A DNA stretch of 60,622 nucleotides from an uncultured Eubacteriaceae bacterium (GTDB lineage: Bacteria > Bacillota > Clostridia > Eubacteriales > Eubacteriaceae): the NCBI GenBank assembly GCA_937872065.1, contig CALMRA010000064.1, positions 1 to 60,622 on the forward strand, given 5' to 3'. The position numbers were made by a program, and so were the translations under genes. Of the stretch, positions 28,853 to 45,378 are shown one piece after another (positions within the stretch are counted from its first letter, which is position 1; the number at the start of each line of letters is the position of its first letter). The notes under the pieces are model-generated. The model saw nothing but the letters and a program-made list of their open reading frames with translations. It did no database searches and had not been told where the DNA came from.

Positions 28853-28880
28853 AAAAAAAACCGGCAGGCGCCGGCATTTT
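28853..28880 (-). terminator. Riboswitch-controlled terminator upstream of asd
   Basis: On the minus strand, CCGGC / GCCGG with loop GCCT followed by eight T, directly after the lysine aptamer. It is the expected expression platform for lysine-dependent attenuation. Confidence 0.85.
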
Positions 28881-28881
28881 A

Positions 28882-29048
28882 CCGATAGCCCTCCGCCTTT
28901 CGGCGACAGTACTGACGCTGTTTGCGGCAGTCCCAGCAGTCCGCAGGTACGGCGGCTCACTTCGGCGTCCGATCCTTTTTCCTGTCTTCATCCCCGTGTA
29001 CCCGGGTCTGACAGGCTACTCATAAGAGACGCGCCTCTATCTCGTTCT
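28882..29048 (-). promoter_or_regulatory. Lysine riboswitch (L box)
   Basis: On the minus strand the leader shows the conserved L-box elements in order: AACGAGATAGAGGCGC at the 5' side of P1, GAGTA, GGGGATGAAGACAGG, GACGCCGAAGTGAG, CTGCTGGGACTGCCG, and GGAGGGCTATC closing P1 at the 3' side (GATAG pairs with CTATC). A terminator follows, so lysine binding should stop transcription of asd-dapABH-lysC-ACT. Confidence 0.92.
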
Positions 29049-34028: not shown

Positions 34029-34104
<76 letters not shown>

Positions 34105-34112
34105 TTTATACC

Positions 34113-34187
34113 GCGGAAGTGGCTCAGTGGTAGAGCATCGCCTTGCCAAGGCGAGGGTCGCGAGTTCAAATCTCGTCTTCCGCTCCA
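34113..34187 (+). tRNA. tRNA-Gly (GCC)
   Basis: 75 bases with encoded CCA. Acceptor GCGGAAG pairs with CTTCCGC; anticodon GCC. Identical to the copy at 34485-34559. Confidence 0.97.
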
Positions 34188-34400: not shown

Positions 34401-34476
<76 letters not shown>

Positions 34477-34484
34477 TTTATACC

Positions 34485-34559
34485 GCGGAAGTGGCTCAGT
34501 GGTAGAGCATCGCCTTGCCAAGGCGAGGGTCGCGAGTTCAAATCTCGTCTTCCGCTCCA
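34485..34559 (+). tRNA. tRNA-Gly (GCC), second copy
   Basis: 75 bases, identical to 34113-34187. Confidence 0.97.
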
Positions 34560-36617: not shown

Positions 36618-37037
36618 ATGAAAGATTATGAACAGCAGCTGTTCAGACTGTACAGCGGACTCGTCGATATGGATCAGAAAACGAGAGAAACACGCAGCCG
36701 CGAGGACAACGGGGACTGCTTCACACCGTGTCAGATACGGTATCTGAAGCTCATCGACAGTCACGAACGGCTCACGTCATCTCAGTTTGCGAATATCATG
36801 CAGGTATCGAAACCCACGGTATCGCAGCTTATCGCGCGCTTCGTCGATTCCGACTGTATCTACAAAGAACCGTCGAACAGAGACAGACGCATCTGCTATA
36901 TCATGCTCACGCCGAAAGGCAGACGCATTGCGAGAGCGGACAGCGACGCCAGGCACGACGTCGTCCAGTATATCAGCACAAAGCTGACGCCGGACGAAAT
37001 AGACCTGCTGATCGCCCTGCTTGACAAGCTTGTCTAG
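36618..37037 (+). CDS. MarR family transcriptional regulator
   Basis: 139 residues with a winged helix: LTSSQFANIMQVSKPTVSQLIARFVDSDCIYKEPSNRDRRICYIMLTPKGRRIA contains the recognition helix and the wing (NRDRR). The N-terminal helix and C-terminal helices (DEIDLLIALLDKL) form the dimer domain. Probably represses its own promoter through the palindrome. GAGGAG precedes the ATG. lon follows after 34 bases with no terminator. Confidence 0.9.
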   Translation: MKDYEQQLFRLYSGLVDMDQKTRETRSREDNGDCFTPCQIRYLKLIDSHERLTSSQFANIMQVSKPTVSQLIARFVDSDCIYKEPSNRDRRICYIMLTPKGRRIARADSDARHDVVQYISTKLTPDEIDLLIALLDKLV

Positions 37038-37071
37038 CATCATTTGTCACGCATCATTTAAGGAGGAAAGA

Positions 37072-39456
37072 ATGAGTACCGAAATGAATAAAGCACCAGT
37101 CGTTCCGATCACAGAAACAGTCATCTTTCCGGGCACAACCAACCGGATATTTGTCAATGAAGTTATCGGACAGAATATCAGAAAGCTGATCGCCCAGAAC
37201 CAGACGCTGGCAGTCGGACTGACTACCAAAGTGTACCATGCATACGACCTCCTGACAGAAGAAGACTTTTATAGAACTGGCGTACTGCTCAAGTTAGATA
37301 ATATTCAGAAGTCAGATAACGGTTTTATCATCGACATTTTCACCGTCGGACGCGCAGTCGTCACGTCGGTTTCAAACGGACCCGACGGTCTGGTCTGCGA
37401 ATATGAACAGGCGGACCTGAAGGACGATCTTACCGCGACGGAAGAAGCGGAAATGATCGACTATATCAAGGGCATGATCCGCGATATCGGAAAGAATTTC
37501 AGAAGCATCGACCAGTTCCTGAAGGTTCTCGACAACATGACGTCACTGGACGAACTCATCGGCTACACGGTTCCGATGATGGGCGCTACCCTCGAAGAAA
37601 AACAGGCGCTGCTCGACATGGATTCGAAGCGCGAACGCGCTCTCGCTTTCATGGACGCGGTGATCAAACAGAAGGATTCCGTTCATCTGCAGCTTGAAAT
37701 TTCGAAGAAATACGGGCAGGAACGGGAAAAGCAGTATAAAGAAGCGATGCTTCGCGAACAGATGAAAAACATCCAGAGCGAGCTGAACGAACTTGACGAA
37801 GAAGGCGAAGAAAAGAGCTATCTCGAACGCGTCAGGGAATCCGACATGCCGGACGATGTCAAGAAGATCGGGATCCGCGAAGCGAAGAAGCTGGAACAGA
37901 CCAATCCCCAGAGCAGCGAATACAACGTAATGGTCAATTACCTGGACCTGCTGCTGGAACTGCCGTGGAAATCTGAAATCAAGGACATCGACATCGCGAA
38001 AGCAAGAGAAATCCTCGATTCCGATCACTACGGTATCACGGACGTCAAGAAGCGCATTATCGAACATCTCGCGGTCATGAAGCTCAAACAGAGCCGTCAG
38101 GGCTCTATCCTGATCCTCGCAGGCCCTCCCGGAACCGGGAAGACAAGCCTCGGGAAGAGCATCGCGAGAGCGCTCAACCGTGAATACGTCCGCGTAAGCC
38201 TGGGCGGCGTTCACGACGAATCCGAAATCCGCGGTCATCGCAGAACCTACGTCGGCGCGATGCCGGGACGCATCATCAAGGGCATCAAGAGCGCGGGAAC
38301 GAAGAATCCTGTGTTTATCCTCGACGAAGTGGACAAGCTGGGCGCATCGGCCAACGGAGACCCGTCGGCGGCGCTGCTCGAAGTCCTCGACCCCGAACAG
38401 AACAATACCTTCGCGGACCACTATCTCGAAGTACCCTACGATCTGTCGGACGTCTTCTTTATCGGAACAGCCAACGACCTGAGCACGATCCCGGGTCCGC
38501 TGCTGGACAGAGCGGAAATTATCGAACTGTCTTCCTATACGGAAAACGAAAAGATGCATATCGCGAAGGAACATCTGATCCGCAGAGTGCTCGACGACCA
38601 CGGCCTGACGCCGGAACAGTTCAGCATTACGGATGAAGCTCTCCAGAAGATCATCACGGACTATACTGCGGAAGCAGGTGTCCGAGGACTGACCAAGGCG
38701 CTTTCAAAGGCGGCGCGCGCAGCGACTGCCCAGATCGTGTCCGGCGAAAAGGAATCGGTCCAGATCAATATGGAAGATATCGCGGATTACCTCGGAAACA
38801 AGACGCGAACCCACGAAAAGGCGGGCGACCGCAACGAACCGGGCGTCGTCACAGGCATGGCCTGGACGCCGGTCGGAGGCGAAATCCTGTTTACCGAAGC
38901 GGTGTTCATGCCCGGAAACGGCAAGATCACGACCACAGGCCAGCTCGGCGATGTGATGAAGGAATCTGCGGAAATCGCGGCCAGCCTCGTCCGCTCGAGA
39001 CTCGGCGCGGCTCAGACGGGCTTCGATTTCTTCAAGCATGACATCCATATCCACGTTCCTGCAGGAGCGACGCCGAAGGACGGTCCGTCGGCAGGCGTAA
39101 CGCTTACGACGGCGCTGGCAAGCCTGATTCTCGGAATTCCGGTCGACGCGAAGCTGTCGATGACCGGTGAAATCTCCCTGTCCGGCAAGGTTCTTCCGGT
39201 AGGCGGGATCAAGGAAAAGGTCATGGCGGCGCAGCGCGCGGGCATTAAGACCATCCTGCTTCCGAAGGAAAACGAAAAGGACATCGAGGATATCCCGGAA
39301 GAAGTCCGCAGCCAGCTTACCTTCAAGCTGATGTCCACCATCGACGAAGTTCTCGAAGCGGCCCTCGGTGTAAAAGTTCCCCAGCAGCGTGAAAGCTTCC
39401 ACCTGCTGCTTAACCAGCCGAAGAAGGATGTGGAAATCCCGTCGATGATCCTCTGA
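37072..39456 (+). CDS. lon: ATP-dependent protease Lon
   Basis: Cytoplasmic quality-control protease. 794 residues: N-terminal substrate-binding domain (VVPITETVIFPGTTNRIFV start), AAA+ domain with Walker A GPPGTGKT at 351-358, VFILDEVDKL, and a protease domain with the Ser673/Lys716 dyad (KDGPSAGVTL and GGIKEKVMAA). The frame is open to a TTG at 37021, but AAGGAGG before ATG 37072 decides the start. Lies in one unit with the MarR gene. Confidence 0.96.
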   Translation: MSTEMNKAPVVPITETVIFPGTTNRIFVNEVIGQNIRKLIAQNQTLAVGLTTKVYHAYDLLTEEDFYRTGVLLKLDNIQKSDNGFIIDIFTVGRAVVTSVSNGPDGLVCEYEQADLKDDLTATEEAEMIDYIKGMIRDIGKNFRSIDQFLKVLDNMTSLDELIGYTVPMMGATLEEKQALLDMDSKRERALAFMDAVIKQKDSVHLQLEISKKYGQEREKQYKEAMLREQMKNIQSELNELDEEGEEKSYLERVRESDMPDDVKKIGIREAKKLEQTNPQSSEYNVMVNYLDLLLELPWKSEIKDIDIAKAREILDSDHYGITDVKKRIIEHLAVMKLKQSRQGSILILAGPPGTGKTSLGKSIARALNREYVRVSLGGVHDESEIRGHRRTYVGAMPGRIIKGIKSAGTKNPVFILDEVDKLGASANGDPSAALLEVLDPEQNNTFADHYLEVPYDLSDVFFIGTANDLSTIPGPLLDRAEIIELSSYTENEKMHIAKEHLIRRVLDDHGLTPEQFSITDEALQKIITDYTAEAGVRGLTKALSKAARAATAQIVSGEKESVQINMEDIADYLGNKTRTHEKAGDRNEPGVVTGMAWTPVGGEILFTEAVFMPGNGKITTTGQLGDVMKESAEIAASLVRSRLGAAQTGFDFFKHDIHIHVPAGATPKDGPSAGVTLTTALASLILGIPVDAKLSMTGEISLSGKVLPVGGIKEKVMAAQRAGIKTILLPKENEKDIEDIPEEVRSQLTFKLMSTIDEVLEAALGVKVPQQRESFHLLLNQPKKDVEIPSMIL

Positions 39457-39586: not shown

Positions 39587-39648
39587 TGTGGTAAACTTTA
39601 AAAAGCAATACGTTTTCATTGCTCAATTCAAATGATGGAGGAGCCTCT

Positions 39649-40638
39649 ATGAAGAAAAAGCTGACCATTCTGCTCGCACTGATACTCGGGCTGATGTGTA
39701 TTCTGACAGGATGCGGAGAAGAGAAGATCGAACCCCAGACTGTGAAGATCGCCGCACTGGCCGGTCCGACCGGAATGGGGATGGCACCGATGATCGTGGA
39801 CAAGCCCACGCTTGCAGACGGAGTCGAACTCGATTTTACGGTTGCGACGTCCGCCGACCAGATCACCGCCGACATTATTAACGGAACGTATCAGATCGCC
39901 GCGGTACCGACGAATCTGGCCGCGACGCTGTACAACAAAACGGACGGGAAAGTAATTCTCGGAGCGGTCAATACCCTCGGAACCCTTTCGATCGTCTCTG
40001 ACTCCGGCGCGAATATCAATTCGATATCCGATCTGAAGGGACAGACCATCGGGGCGACGGGACAGGGATCTGTTCCGGAATACGTGCTCAAATCGCTGCT
40101 CAAGTCCAACGGGATCGATCCGGACACCGACGTGACCATCCAGTGGTATTCGGAACACGCACAGGCGGCGGCCGCTCTTGCAGCCGGAGAAATCACAATC
40201 GCAATGCTTCCGGAACCCTTCGCGACCACGACGCTCGCACAGAATTCGAATCTGACCAAATCGATCGATCTGAATACTGCCTGGAGCGACGCGAACGACG
40301 GACAGCAGATGGAAATGGGCTGCATCATCGTGAACAAGGAATGGGCGGACAACAACCCGGCTCTCGTCAAGAAATTTATGGCAGAGTACAAGGCTTCCGT
40401 CGAAACGATCAACAGCGACACCGACGAGGCGGCGCAGTATGTCGTCGACGCCGGCATCATCAAGAGCGCGGAGCTCGCGAAGAAAGCGATTCCGAACTGC
40501 GCGATCACCTTTATCAGCGCCCAGGATGCGAAGAAGGATCTGAACGGCTTCCTGACCACGCTGTACGATTATAATCCTGATTCGGTCGGAGGAAGCGTTC
40601 CGGCTGAAGACAGCAGCTTCTTCTCGCTGTCTTATTAA
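39649..40638 (+). CDS. ABC transporter substrate-binding lipoprotein (SsuA/NMT1-like)
   Basis: 329 residues. Lipoprotein signal peptide with lipobox LTGC and modified Cys22. The mature part resembles periplasmic binding proteins for sulfonates, taurine or thiamine precursors: LAGPTGMGMAPMI, AVPTNLAATLYNK, LKGQTIGATGQGSVPEYVLKSLL. The ligand cannot be assigned. ATG 39649 follows GGAGGAG and gives a proper signal peptide; the frame opens upstream at 39619. The permease starts one base after the stop. Confidence 0.88.
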   Translation: MKKKLTILLALILGLMCILTGCGEEKIEPQTVKIAALAGPTGMGMAPMIVDKPTLADGVELDFTVATSADQITADIINGTYQIAAVPTNLAATLYNKTDGKVILGAVNTLGTLSIVSDSGANINSISDLKGQTIGATGQGSVPEYVLKSLLKSNGIDPDTDVTIQWYSEHAQAAAALAAGEITIAMLPEPFATTTLAQNSNLTKSIDLNTAWSDANDGQQMEMGCIIVNKEWADNNPALVKKFMAEYKASVETINSDTDEAAQYVVDAGIIKSAELAKKAIPNCAITFISAQDAKKDLNGFLTTLYDYNPDSVGGSVPAEDSSFFSLSY

Positions 40639-40639
40639 T

Positions 40640-41389
40640 ATGAAAAAAGCTCACGGAAGAGCCGCAGTGGTCATCTCTGCGGCTCTTTTCTGGCTCATTC
40701 TCTGGGAATGCGTATCGCTGTCCGTCGGAAGCGAGCTCATCTTTCCCGGACCTGTCCGGACGCTTGCTGCGCTGATCGGTCTGCTCGGGACATCGGAGTT
40801 TTATACGTCGGTGGGCTGGACGATGCTGCGGGTGTTCGGAGGCGTTTTTCTGTCGGTGGGACTCGGGATCGTCTTCGGGATCCTGTCGGGCTTCTATGAG
40901 CCCGTACGGACGATTCTCGCGCCTGCAGTTTCGACCGTTCGAAGTCTGCCTGTGGTATCGGTGATTATCCTGCTCAATCTGTGGCTCAAGTCCGGTGTCG
41001 TTCCGCTGGCGGTGACGTTCTTCGTCTGCTTTCCGATTACGTGGACCAACGTGACCGAGGGAATCCTGAGCACCGATCCGCTGCTCGTCGAGATGGCGGA
41101 TCTGTACAGGGTGCCGGCAGGACGAAGACTCAGAGATCTGTATTTTCCGGCGCTGCGCCCGTATCTGAACGCGTCCCTGATGAATGCGGTCGGGATGGGA
41201 TGGAAATCGACGGTAACCGCGGAGGTGCTTGCGGCCGCGAGACCTTCTGCAGGTATGAATCTGTATTATGCGAAGCTGTATCTGAACACACCGGAGCTGT
41301 TCGCATGGACCGTCGCACTCATTCTGTGCAGCATGATCGTCGAGAAGATCCTCAGGCTGATTATCGGAAAGGAACGTCCCGCCATATGA
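40640..41389 (+). CDS. ABC transporter permease (SsuC/TauC-like)
   Basis: 249 residues with about six membrane segments and the cytoplasmic coupling motif (EMADLYRVPAGRRLRDLYFPALRPYL, an EAA loop). Belongs to the nitrate/sulfonate/taurine permease group. Overlaps the ATPase gene by four bases (ATGA). Confidence 0.9.
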   Translation: MKKAHGRAAVVISAALFWLILWECVSLSVGSELIFPGPVRTLAALIGLLGTSEFYTSVGWTMLRVFGGVFLSVGLGIVFGILSGFYEPVRTILAPAVSTVRSLPVVSVIILLNLWLKSGVVPLAVTFFVCFPITWTNVTEGILSTDPLLVEMADLYRVPAGRRLRDLYFPALRPYLNASLMNAVGMGWKSTVTAEVLAAARPSAGMNLYYAKLYLNTPELFAWTVALILCSMIVEKILRLIIGKERPAI

Positions 41390-41994
41390 AAGCCCGGCAT
41401 ATTTACAAGAATTATCAGACGGCTGCCGGAAACTGCAGGGTTCTCAGCGATCTGTCGTTTGACGCGGGTCCCGGGATCACGGGACTTACGGGACCCTCCG
41501 GAACGGGAAAGACGACGCTGCTTCGAATTCTGGCGGGGCTTGAGAAACCCGATTCAGGCACTGCGGATACCGACGGAAAGAAAATCGGCTATGTTTTTCA
41601 GGAGGACCGTCTGCTTCCGGCCGTGAGCGTGCGCAGAAATCTCGAATTCGTGCAGGAGAAGCCCGACCGGGGGCGCATCGACGAGGTCCTGAGAATGACG
41701 GGACTGACGGAAAAGGCGGACAGCCTTCCGGACGAACTCTCCGGGGGCATGAAGCGCCGCGTCGCGCTGGCACGGGCGCTGGTCTCGAAGCCTGAAATAC
41801 TGCTTATGGACGAGCCCTTCACGGGTCTCGATCCGGAACTGACCGCGGCTCTGATCGCGGATATCAAAACTATCGTAAAGGAAAACGGAATCACCGCCGT
41901 CGTCGTCAGCCACCAGCAGGGTGAGCTCGAGGCGTTATGCTCGAGGATCGTCCCGCTGTCGCAGATTAACGGATCCGGTGAATATTCGGATTAA
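41386..41994 (+). CDS. ABC transporter ATP-binding protein
   Basis: 202 residues, short for the family. Walker A GPSGTGKTTLL, Q-loop YVFQEDRLLPAVSV, signature LSGGMKRRVALARAL, Walker B ILLMDEPFTGLD and H-loop VVVSHQQGE. The frame extends upstream, but ATG 41386 overlaps the permease stop. Ends four bases before the amylase-TadA gene. Confidence 0.92.
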   Translation: MKARHIYKNYQTAAGNCRVLSDLSFDAGPGITGLTGPSGTGKTTLLRILAGLEKPDSGTADTDGKKIGYVFQEDRLLPAVSVRRNLEFVQEKPDRGRIDEVLRMTGLTEKADSLPDELSGGMKRRVALARALVSKPEILLMDEPFTGLDPELTAALIADIKTIVKENGITAVVVSHQQGELEALCSRIVPLSQINGSGEYSD

Positions 41995-41998
41995 TGAC

Positions 41999-43987
41999 AT
42001 GAAAACACAGGACAGAAATATCTACCACATCTTTACCATGGGCTTCTGCGGAGCGGAAGCGGAACAGGCGCAGTGCAGACAGATTCAGCACAGACTGGAC
42101 AAGGCTGCAGCGCTCATCCCGTATCTGACGGAACTGGGTACGAATACCGTGCTGTTCGGGCCGCTGTTCAGCTCTGTTTCACACGGATACGATACGATCG
42201 ATTACGAAACGGTGGATCCCCGTCTCGGTACGAACGAGGATCTTGCCGAACTTACGGCGGCGTTTCATGAAGCCGGAATCGAAGTCGTTCTCGACTGTGT
42301 TTTCAACCACGTGGGCCGCGGCCATTTCGCCGTCCTGGATCTTCTGAAAAACCGCGAAAACAGCCGGTATAAGGACTGGTTCGTCAATGTCAATTTTCAG
42401 GGGAACAACGCCTACAACGACGGACTCTGGTACGCGGACTGGGCGGGATGCGCGAATCTCGTCAAGCTCAACCTGTGGAATCCGGAGGTCAGAGACTATC
42501 TGAAACAGACGCTCGCCTCATGGATCACAGATTACGGCATAGACGGCGTGCGGCTCGATGCGGCCAACGTTATGGATCCGGGATTCCTTGCGGAGCTTTC
42601 GGATTACGCGCGCAGCATCAAGCCGGGCTTTTTCCTGTTCGGGGAAATCGTCGGAGGCGATTACGGCCGTTTTGTCAGGGACGGTCATCTTGATTCATGT
42701 ACCAATTACGAATGCTATAAGGGCATGTACTCTGCGCTCAATGATAAAAACTATTTCGAGATCGCCCATTCGATTCGCCGGCTGATGGCGCCGGGCGGAA
42801 TCTGCGACGGTTTTCCGCCGGCAAATTTCGTCGACAACCATGACGTAAACAGGGTCGCTTCGACGCTGCGGGACGAAAATCTGCTCACGCCGCTGTACAC
42901 GCTGCTGTACACGATGCCCGGTTTCCCGACCATTTATTACGGAAGCGAACAGGGTACTAAAGGAAAGAAAGCGAACGGAACGGACGCTCCGCTGCGCCCG
43001 CCTGCAGAAGCGATGCATTTCGACGACAAGTGCGCGCTGTACCGGACTATCGCGAAGCTTGCGAAGGTACGCGCCGCGTCGGACGCGCTTCGTTCGGGAG
43101 CCTACGCGGAGGGTTTTATCCGTCCCGAACAATACGGTTTCTATCGGGAAGCCGGCGGAGAAAAGGTCTTTGTCGCTCTGAACATGAGCGGAGAGTCCTG
43201 CTCGGCGCCGGCAGGACTGCATGGTTCTTATACCGACGTCCTGACCGGAGAGGTCCTGAAACTGGACGGGGACCTTCCGCTGGAAGCTTTTTCCGGACGG
43301 ATCCTGTATGAAACCGGAAAGGAGCCGCAGGAGCTGATGGACGACAAGAAGGGAACATGCCCGAACCCGGGCCCGCAGGAAGTCGTGACCGTTGAAAATC
43401 CCGGAAAACCGCCGCTGGAAGTGATCGAAAATATTCCGACACAGGCTCAGAGCCGGGATGAAATCGGCGACGATTCGGACGAAGACGGAGAGCCGGAGGG
43501 CGGAGACGGAGATTCTGAAGAGTCTTCCGGCTTCGCCCCTAAAATGAACGAGTACATGAGCGCCGCCATCGCCGAAGCGAAGCTTGCGGAAGCGGACGGA
43601 GAGGTTCCTGTCGGCGCGGTGATCGTTCGGGACGGGCAGATTATCGCGCGCGGTCATAACGAAAAGGAAGGCCGGCAGGATCCGACGGCTCACGCGGAAA
43701 TGCTCGCGATCCGCAGGGCGGCTGAAAAGCTGGGACGCTACCGTCTCGGCGACTGCGAGCTGTATGTGACGGCGGAGCCGTGCCCGATGTGTCTCGGGGC
43801 GGTCATGCAGGCGAGAATCGGAAAGATCGTCTACGGGACGAATGAACCGCGCTACGGCGCGGTCGAAACCACCGCGGAGCTCGGCGCCCATCCGATGATG
43901 CCGGAGAAGGCGGAAATTTACTCGGGTGTCCGGGAAGAGGAGTGCCGCAGTCTGCTCAGACGCTTTTTTGACCGGAATCGCAAGTGA
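41999..43987 (+). CDS. GH13 alpha-amylase fused to TadA-type deaminase
   Basis: 662 residues in one uninterrupted frame. Residues 1-440 are a GH13 glycosidase with region I DCVFNHV (99-105), nucleophile Asp187 (VRLDAA), acid/base Glu216 (LFGEI) and Asp282 (FVDNHD), so the catalytic triad is complete; there is no signal peptide, so it is cytoplasmic. Residues 441-515 form a linker ending in an acidic stretch (490-510). Residues 516-662 are a cytidine-deaminase-fold domain of the TadA family: HAE at 565-567 and PCPMC at 594-598 bind zinc, with VPVGAVIV ahead. The C-terminal part lacks the usual FNH-like loop of tRNA deaminases. Start ATG 41999 is preceded by only a weak site, and the gene follows the ABC ATPase by four bases. 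No ribosome site is seen before Met516. Confidence 0.88.
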   Translation: MKTQDRNIYHIFTMGFCGAEAEQAQCRQIQHRLDKAAALIPYLTELGTNTVLFGPLFSSVSHGYDTIDYETVDPRLGTNEDLAELTAAFHEAGIEVVLDCVFNHVGRGHFAVLDLLKNRENSRYKDWFVNVNFQGNNAYNDGLWYADWAGCANLVKLNLWNPEVRDYLKQTLASWITDYGIDGVRLDAANVMDPGFLAELSDYARSIKPGFFLFGEIVGGDYGRFVRDGHLDSCTNYECYKGMYSALNDKNYFEIAHSIRRLMAPGGICDGFPPANFVDNHDVNRVASTLRDENLLTPLYTLLYTMPGFPTIYYGSEQGTKGKKANGTDAPLRPPAEAMHFDDKCALYRTIAKLAKVRAASDALRSGAYAEGFIRPEQYGFYREAGGEKVFVALNMSGESCSAPAGLHGSYTDVLTGEVLKLDGDLPLEAFSGRILYETGKEPQELMDDKKGTCPNPGPQEVVTVENPGKPPLEVIENIPTQAQSRDEIGDDSDEDGEPEGGDGDSEESSGFAPKMNEYMSAAIAEAKLAEADGEVPVGAVIVRDGQIIARGHNEKEGRQDPTAHAEMLAIRRAAEKLGRYRLGDCELYVTAEPCPMCLGAVMQARIGKIVYGTNEPRYGAVETTAELGAHPMMPEKAEIYSGVREEECRSLLRRFFDRNRK

Positions 43988-44361: not shown

Positions 44362-45378
<1,017 letters not shown>

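Follow-up and report, generated by a model that had tools for sequence, protein, structure and literature searches.

An amylase of family GH13 and a TadA-type deaminase were found to be joined in one open reading frame in an uncultured Eubacteriaceae bacterium, and the fusion is real and old. We consider it likely that the gene encodes a bifunctional protein, in which the native TadA and an ordinary cytosolic GH13 enzyme are carried on one chain, separated by a disordered linker and expressed jointly. The window, as used below, is the whole stretch of DNA that was analyzed, 60,622 nucleotides in length. The following features of the window were used in the analysis.

37021 to 39456, + strand: lon protease gene, conserved upstream neighbour (synteny cluster c7)
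39619 to 41994, + strand: three-gene ABC importer (SsuA/Sao-like binding protein, permease and ATPase), between lon and the fusion
41999 to 43987, + strand: GH13-TadA fusion gene, open frame, 662 aa
41999 to 43306, + strand: GH13 catalytic domain and C-terminal beta domain, residues 1-436 (PF00128, AlphaFold, Foldseek)
43307 to 43537, + strand: acidic linker, residues 437-513, predicted to be disordered (pLDDT; no Pfam match)
43337 to 43339, + strand: ATG of Met447, candidate internal start, with AAGGAG 12 bases upstream
43538 to 43984, + strand: TadA-type deaminase domain, residues 514-662 (PF14437/PF00383, NF008113)
44389 to 45378, + strand: ilvC, first gene of the downstream ilv/leu block (NF004017, 555 bits; synteny)

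Reading frame, domains and neighbouring genes

The frame runs for 662 codons without a stop, with the GH13 part at the N-terminal end and TadA at the C-terminal end. Pfam placed the alpha-amylase domain PF00128 at residues 40-325 (E 5e-44) and the deaminase domains PF14437/PF00383 at residues 517-660 (E 1e-36/2e-31). The one-frame fusion of a GH13 domain with a deaminase, as claimed in the original prediction, was confirmed, and an intact frame was present in 11 other genomes as well. The catalytic residues Asp187, Glu216 and Asp282 named for the GH13 part do not vary when the protein is aligned with 17 free homologues, and they are kept in 12 of 12 fusions, as is the zinc motif of the deaminase (HAE at 565-567 and PCxxC at 595-598; H(A/V)E in general form). 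Judged by these sequence features, both domains are complete and probably active. Two further details were found as described: Met516 is not preceded by a Shine-Dalgarno-like site, and the ATG of the fusion lies four bases after the end of the ABC ATPase frame at 41994. AlphaFold gave residues 1-440 a pLDDT that mostly exceeded 80, and from residue 451 the value dropped below 50; the alignment behind the model consisted of GH13 relatives only, with no TadA rows, and the TadA part was poorly modelled.

The gene at 37021-39456 is taken to be lon from its sequence; its true start is probably further downstream. The ABC importer adjoins the fusion in genera g1 and g6 only, and a functional tie between the two was rejected because of this narrow conservation. 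In genus g9, the fusion is instead followed by a different set of three genes. Rfam gave no RNA element near the fusion. A defence or toxin function was also rejected, PADLOC giving generic GlgB and partial dCTPase matches only. Elsewhere in the window, a lysine riboswitch was located at 28878-29047 on the - strand (97.6 bits), and a tRNA-Phe/tRNA-Gly pair occurs twice with equal spacing, at 34029-34187 and 34401-34559.

Identity of the amylase and the deaminase

The GH13 model was closest in Foldseek to TVAII, neopullulanase and maltogenic amylase, and the best sequence matches of this part fell in the neopullulanase/cyclomaltodextrinase/TVAII group with E values from 6e-45 to 1e-42. The window protein shares the fold and all catalytic residues with this group (1j0h, 1ea9, 1bvz and 2wc7), but it lacks the N-terminal domain of 1j0h and 1bvz: its barrel starts near residue 1, whereas these two structures align only from about chain residue 178. 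The curated equivalog NF041090 scored 163 bits against a cut-off of 540, and no curated specificity was matched. Free clostridial GH13 proteins of about 435-480 aa, for example from Butyrivibrio, were 45-48% identical over the whole GH13 part and have a cytosolic-type N-terminus, as in the window; unlike the fusion, they had tadA nearby in none of 107 loci. The conserved neighbours of the free Butyrivibrio genes were discarded as functional context and taken as plain synteny within a single genus. Some free clostridial proteins carry C-terminal additions, either DUF1653 (Pfam E 1e-24) or a domain of about 45 aa with the pattern YEEMTVEELQxAI...GPVTxxMK and no significant Pfam match (L160, L155, L162, L164, L165, L166, L173, L176 and L177 for the set). 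This clostridial GH13 type seems to have gained C-terminal partners repeatedly.

Glycogen synthase was present in 39 of 40 family genomes, and in the window genome it shares a contig with other GH13 genes. Since glycogen synthase is so widespread, an internal substrate is likely. The N-terminus of the GH13 part shows no signal-peptide character by eye. The GH13 half is probably a cytosolic, neopullulanase/cyclomaltodextrinase-like enzyme that trims short alpha-glucans from the cell's own glycogen, and we infer that glycogen-derived maltodextrins are hydrolyzed by it.

The deaminase domain resembles the bacterial TadA proteins 7cph, S. aureus 2b3j and E. coli 1z3a in a full-length alignment and in the HAE and PCxxC zinc motif. 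Its best PDB match was the B. subtilis-type TadA 7cph (E 1.6e-38). Likewise, it is present as a single copy alongside tRNA-Arg(ACG): one TadA-grade match was found per genome, and a search of the genomes for a second tadA, as proposed earlier, returned none, the other deaminase match being RibD-like. tRNA-Arg(ACG) was found in the window genome, in five other fused genomes and in the unfused genome G003, and CGC was the commonest Arg codon in the window genes (78 of 212). Unlike the bacterial TadA proteins, the window domain forms the C-terminus of a GH13 protein, and its NxxH/FNH loop is replaced by HPM(L/M)(P/S), here as in the whole family.

The original prediction had taken the missing FNH as a sign that the deaminase might be something other than the usual tRNA enzyme. 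A deaminase that no longer edits tRNA and has a different nucleoside or nucleotide as its substrate would fit this loss, the replacement of Asp108 (E. coli numbering) by Glu, and the score against the NCBIfam TadA model NF008113, which at 147.0 bits (E 4e-43) is slightly under the curated cut-off of 150. Such a change of function is nevertheless very improbable. FNH is absent from the C-terminal loop of every aligned family TadA, the unfused Acetobacterium-type included, and Glu at Asp108 is found in fused and unfused proteins alike, also where the unfused TadA is the only one. Relatives score still lower against NF008113, one fused and two unfused at 136-137 bits and one split at 133. Furthermore, the closest PDB structures are tRNA-specific TadAs, and tRNA-Arg(ACG) occurs in a genome with no other TadA. 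Because the missing FNH is family-wide and extends to unfused TadA, it gives no ground to doubt the tRNA role. The real single frame with two complete, probably active enzymes was kept from the earlier reading and its doubt about the deaminase was dropped. By predicted activity, the C-terminal half is most likely the native TadA of the cell, the enzyme that deaminates the wobble adenosine of tRNA-Arg(ACG). B. subtilis survives the loss of TadA (PMC10454642), so the enzyme is not certain to be essential here.

Distribution and history of the locus

GH13 and TadA share one open frame in 12 of 40 family genomes, the window genome included. These frames are 627-702 aa long from stop to stop and fall in five genera (g1, g5, g6, g8 and g9). 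Two of the genomes are closed, Eubacterium limosum ATCC 8486 (G006, CP019962.1) and E. maltosivorans YI (G022, CP029487.1), with published sizes of 4,422,837 and 4,337,501 bases (PMC10795377). In E. limosum ATCC 8486 the fusion gene lies on the minus strand of CP019962.1, at about 4,303,700-4,305,700. An assembly artefact or frameshift is ruled out by the 12 open frames, two of them in closed genomes. A 13th fused genome, G001, has a TadA broken beside two N bases and was taken as low quality. It had been proposed that the fusion would be in doubt if it were unique to one assembly and relatives had separate adjacent genes. Eleven further genomes share the open frame; separate adjacent genes do occur, but in genus g7 only. 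Outside the family, no open frame longer than 369 aa was seen among the listed TadA matches in 391 class genomes, and no GH13-TadA fusion was recognized among the GH13 matches in class genomes other than G381, which has a frame of 632 aa. No description of such a fusion was found in the open-access papers searched, in agreement with the earlier statement that no established amylase-TadA system was known.

An unfused tadA lies beside lon and/or ilv/leu, with no GH13 gene, in G002, G021, G004, G025 and G003. lon-tadA-ilv/leu is the ancestral tadA locus, and it is here that the fusion sits. The family GH13 sequences form one clade (support 99) with branching that follows the RpoB tree, while the TadA sequences are too short to resolve branches firmly. 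G025, G021 and g4 have no GH13, and all of them are nested among the fused lineages in the tree. In the simplest history, a GH13 gene was inserted once before the native tadA and was then lost several times.

In the three genomes of genus g7 (G007, G014 and G019), GH13 and TadA are encoded by separate adjacent genes, which overlap in G014 and G019. The separate TadA carries an acidic N-terminal extension homologous to the window linker, the score being reached by 0, 0 and 1 of 2000 shuffles. The state of g7 would represent one fission after fusion, with its polarity given by parsimony: GH13 and TadA are fused in all other GH13-bearing genera, so a fission needs fewer changes than several fusions. 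The extension is conserved within g7 as EVVT..KPP..I.EGPTQPEERVQ (L141, L142 and L143) and is shared in part with the window linker; its conservation is unlike the free linkers of the other genera.

Both domains gave dN/dS values of 0.02-0.09 with no gaps over seven species pairs, the closest pair having too few changes to judge the TadA value. The linker gave 0.2-0.8 where computable, and its length varies from 21 to 77 aa among the fusions with no stop or frameshift. The GH13 and TadA domains are under strong purifying selection; the sequence and length of the linker are almost free, yet the frame is kept. Conserved domains joined by frame-keeping linkers are the pattern to be expected of a chain that is translated in full.

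Expression and possible coupling of the two halves

In the likely course of events, an ancestor shared by some of the family's lineages would have received a GH13 gene directly upstream of tadA; fusion to tadA at that place is the most economical reading. The disordered linker would keep the GH13 and TadA domains independent of each other. The frame, its conservation, the sole TadA, the locus history and the intact active sites were computed; for the protein itself we infer two independent activities and, as the chief effect of the fusion, joint expression rather than catalytic cross-talk. No cross-talk is indicated, because the linker varies, one genus has the two genes apart, and GH13 has been lost while tadA stays. 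The loss of GH13 from lineages that kept tadA also speaks against GH13 being indispensable there.

Start codons near the junction bear on whether TadA is made from the fused chain. In the window, Met447 (43337), with its upstream AAGGAG, was not mentioned in the original prediction; it corresponds to the codon at which the separate TadA of g7 starts, and in G019 this start is accompanied by GGAGG and an overlapping ATGA. Met447 could thus permit a separate TadA in the window species. If this were general, TadA would come largely from an internal start and the full-length chain would be incidental, but such a two-product arrangement appears unlikely. G009 and G015 have no in-frame ATG, GTG or TTG within the linker or where TadA begins, the only one being inside the last GH13 strand with a Shine-Dalgarno match of at most 3 bases. 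With no start codon in the linker, TadA is very likely produced in these two genomes solely within the fused chain. E. limosum, a species for which ribosome profiling has been published (PMC6260860), has ATGs at the TadA start only, again with a match of at most 3 bases, and there would be no need for linker indels to keep the frame if fused translation were irrelevant.

Functional coupling, in which GH13 binds or senses cytosolic alpha-glucans and alters the activity, location or amount of TadA, is about equally unlikely. Wobble or mRNA A-to-I editing would then be tied to carbon storage. That several genera have long kept the fusion, and both active sites with it, is consistent with coupling, as are the two genomes in which TadA lacks a likely separate start; in E. 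coli, TadA editing has been linked to nutrient-rich growth (PMC13170351). Against it stand the almost free linker, the separate genes of g7, the genera that lost GH13 and kept tadA, and the free GH13 relatives, which are common and do not lie near tadA (0 of 107 loci). That tRNA-Arg wobble editing, and with it CGC/CGA translation or mRNA editing, would respond to the alpha-glucan (glycogen) state via the amylase domain is slightly more doubtful still.

The likely bifunctional protein with independent halves is a natural and long-lived fusion of a tRNA-modifying and a sugar-digesting enzyme, found in the culturable and genetically tractable acetogens E. limosum and E. maltosivorans. Its locus occurs in fused, split and amylase-less form within a single family, which makes it a clean case for separating neutral from regulatory fusion. 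The sole recognizable TadA of these bacteria forms the tail of an amylase. In genomes where TadA lacks a likely separate start, deletion of "an amylase gene" would abolish wobble editing as well, a trap for annotation and strain engineering.
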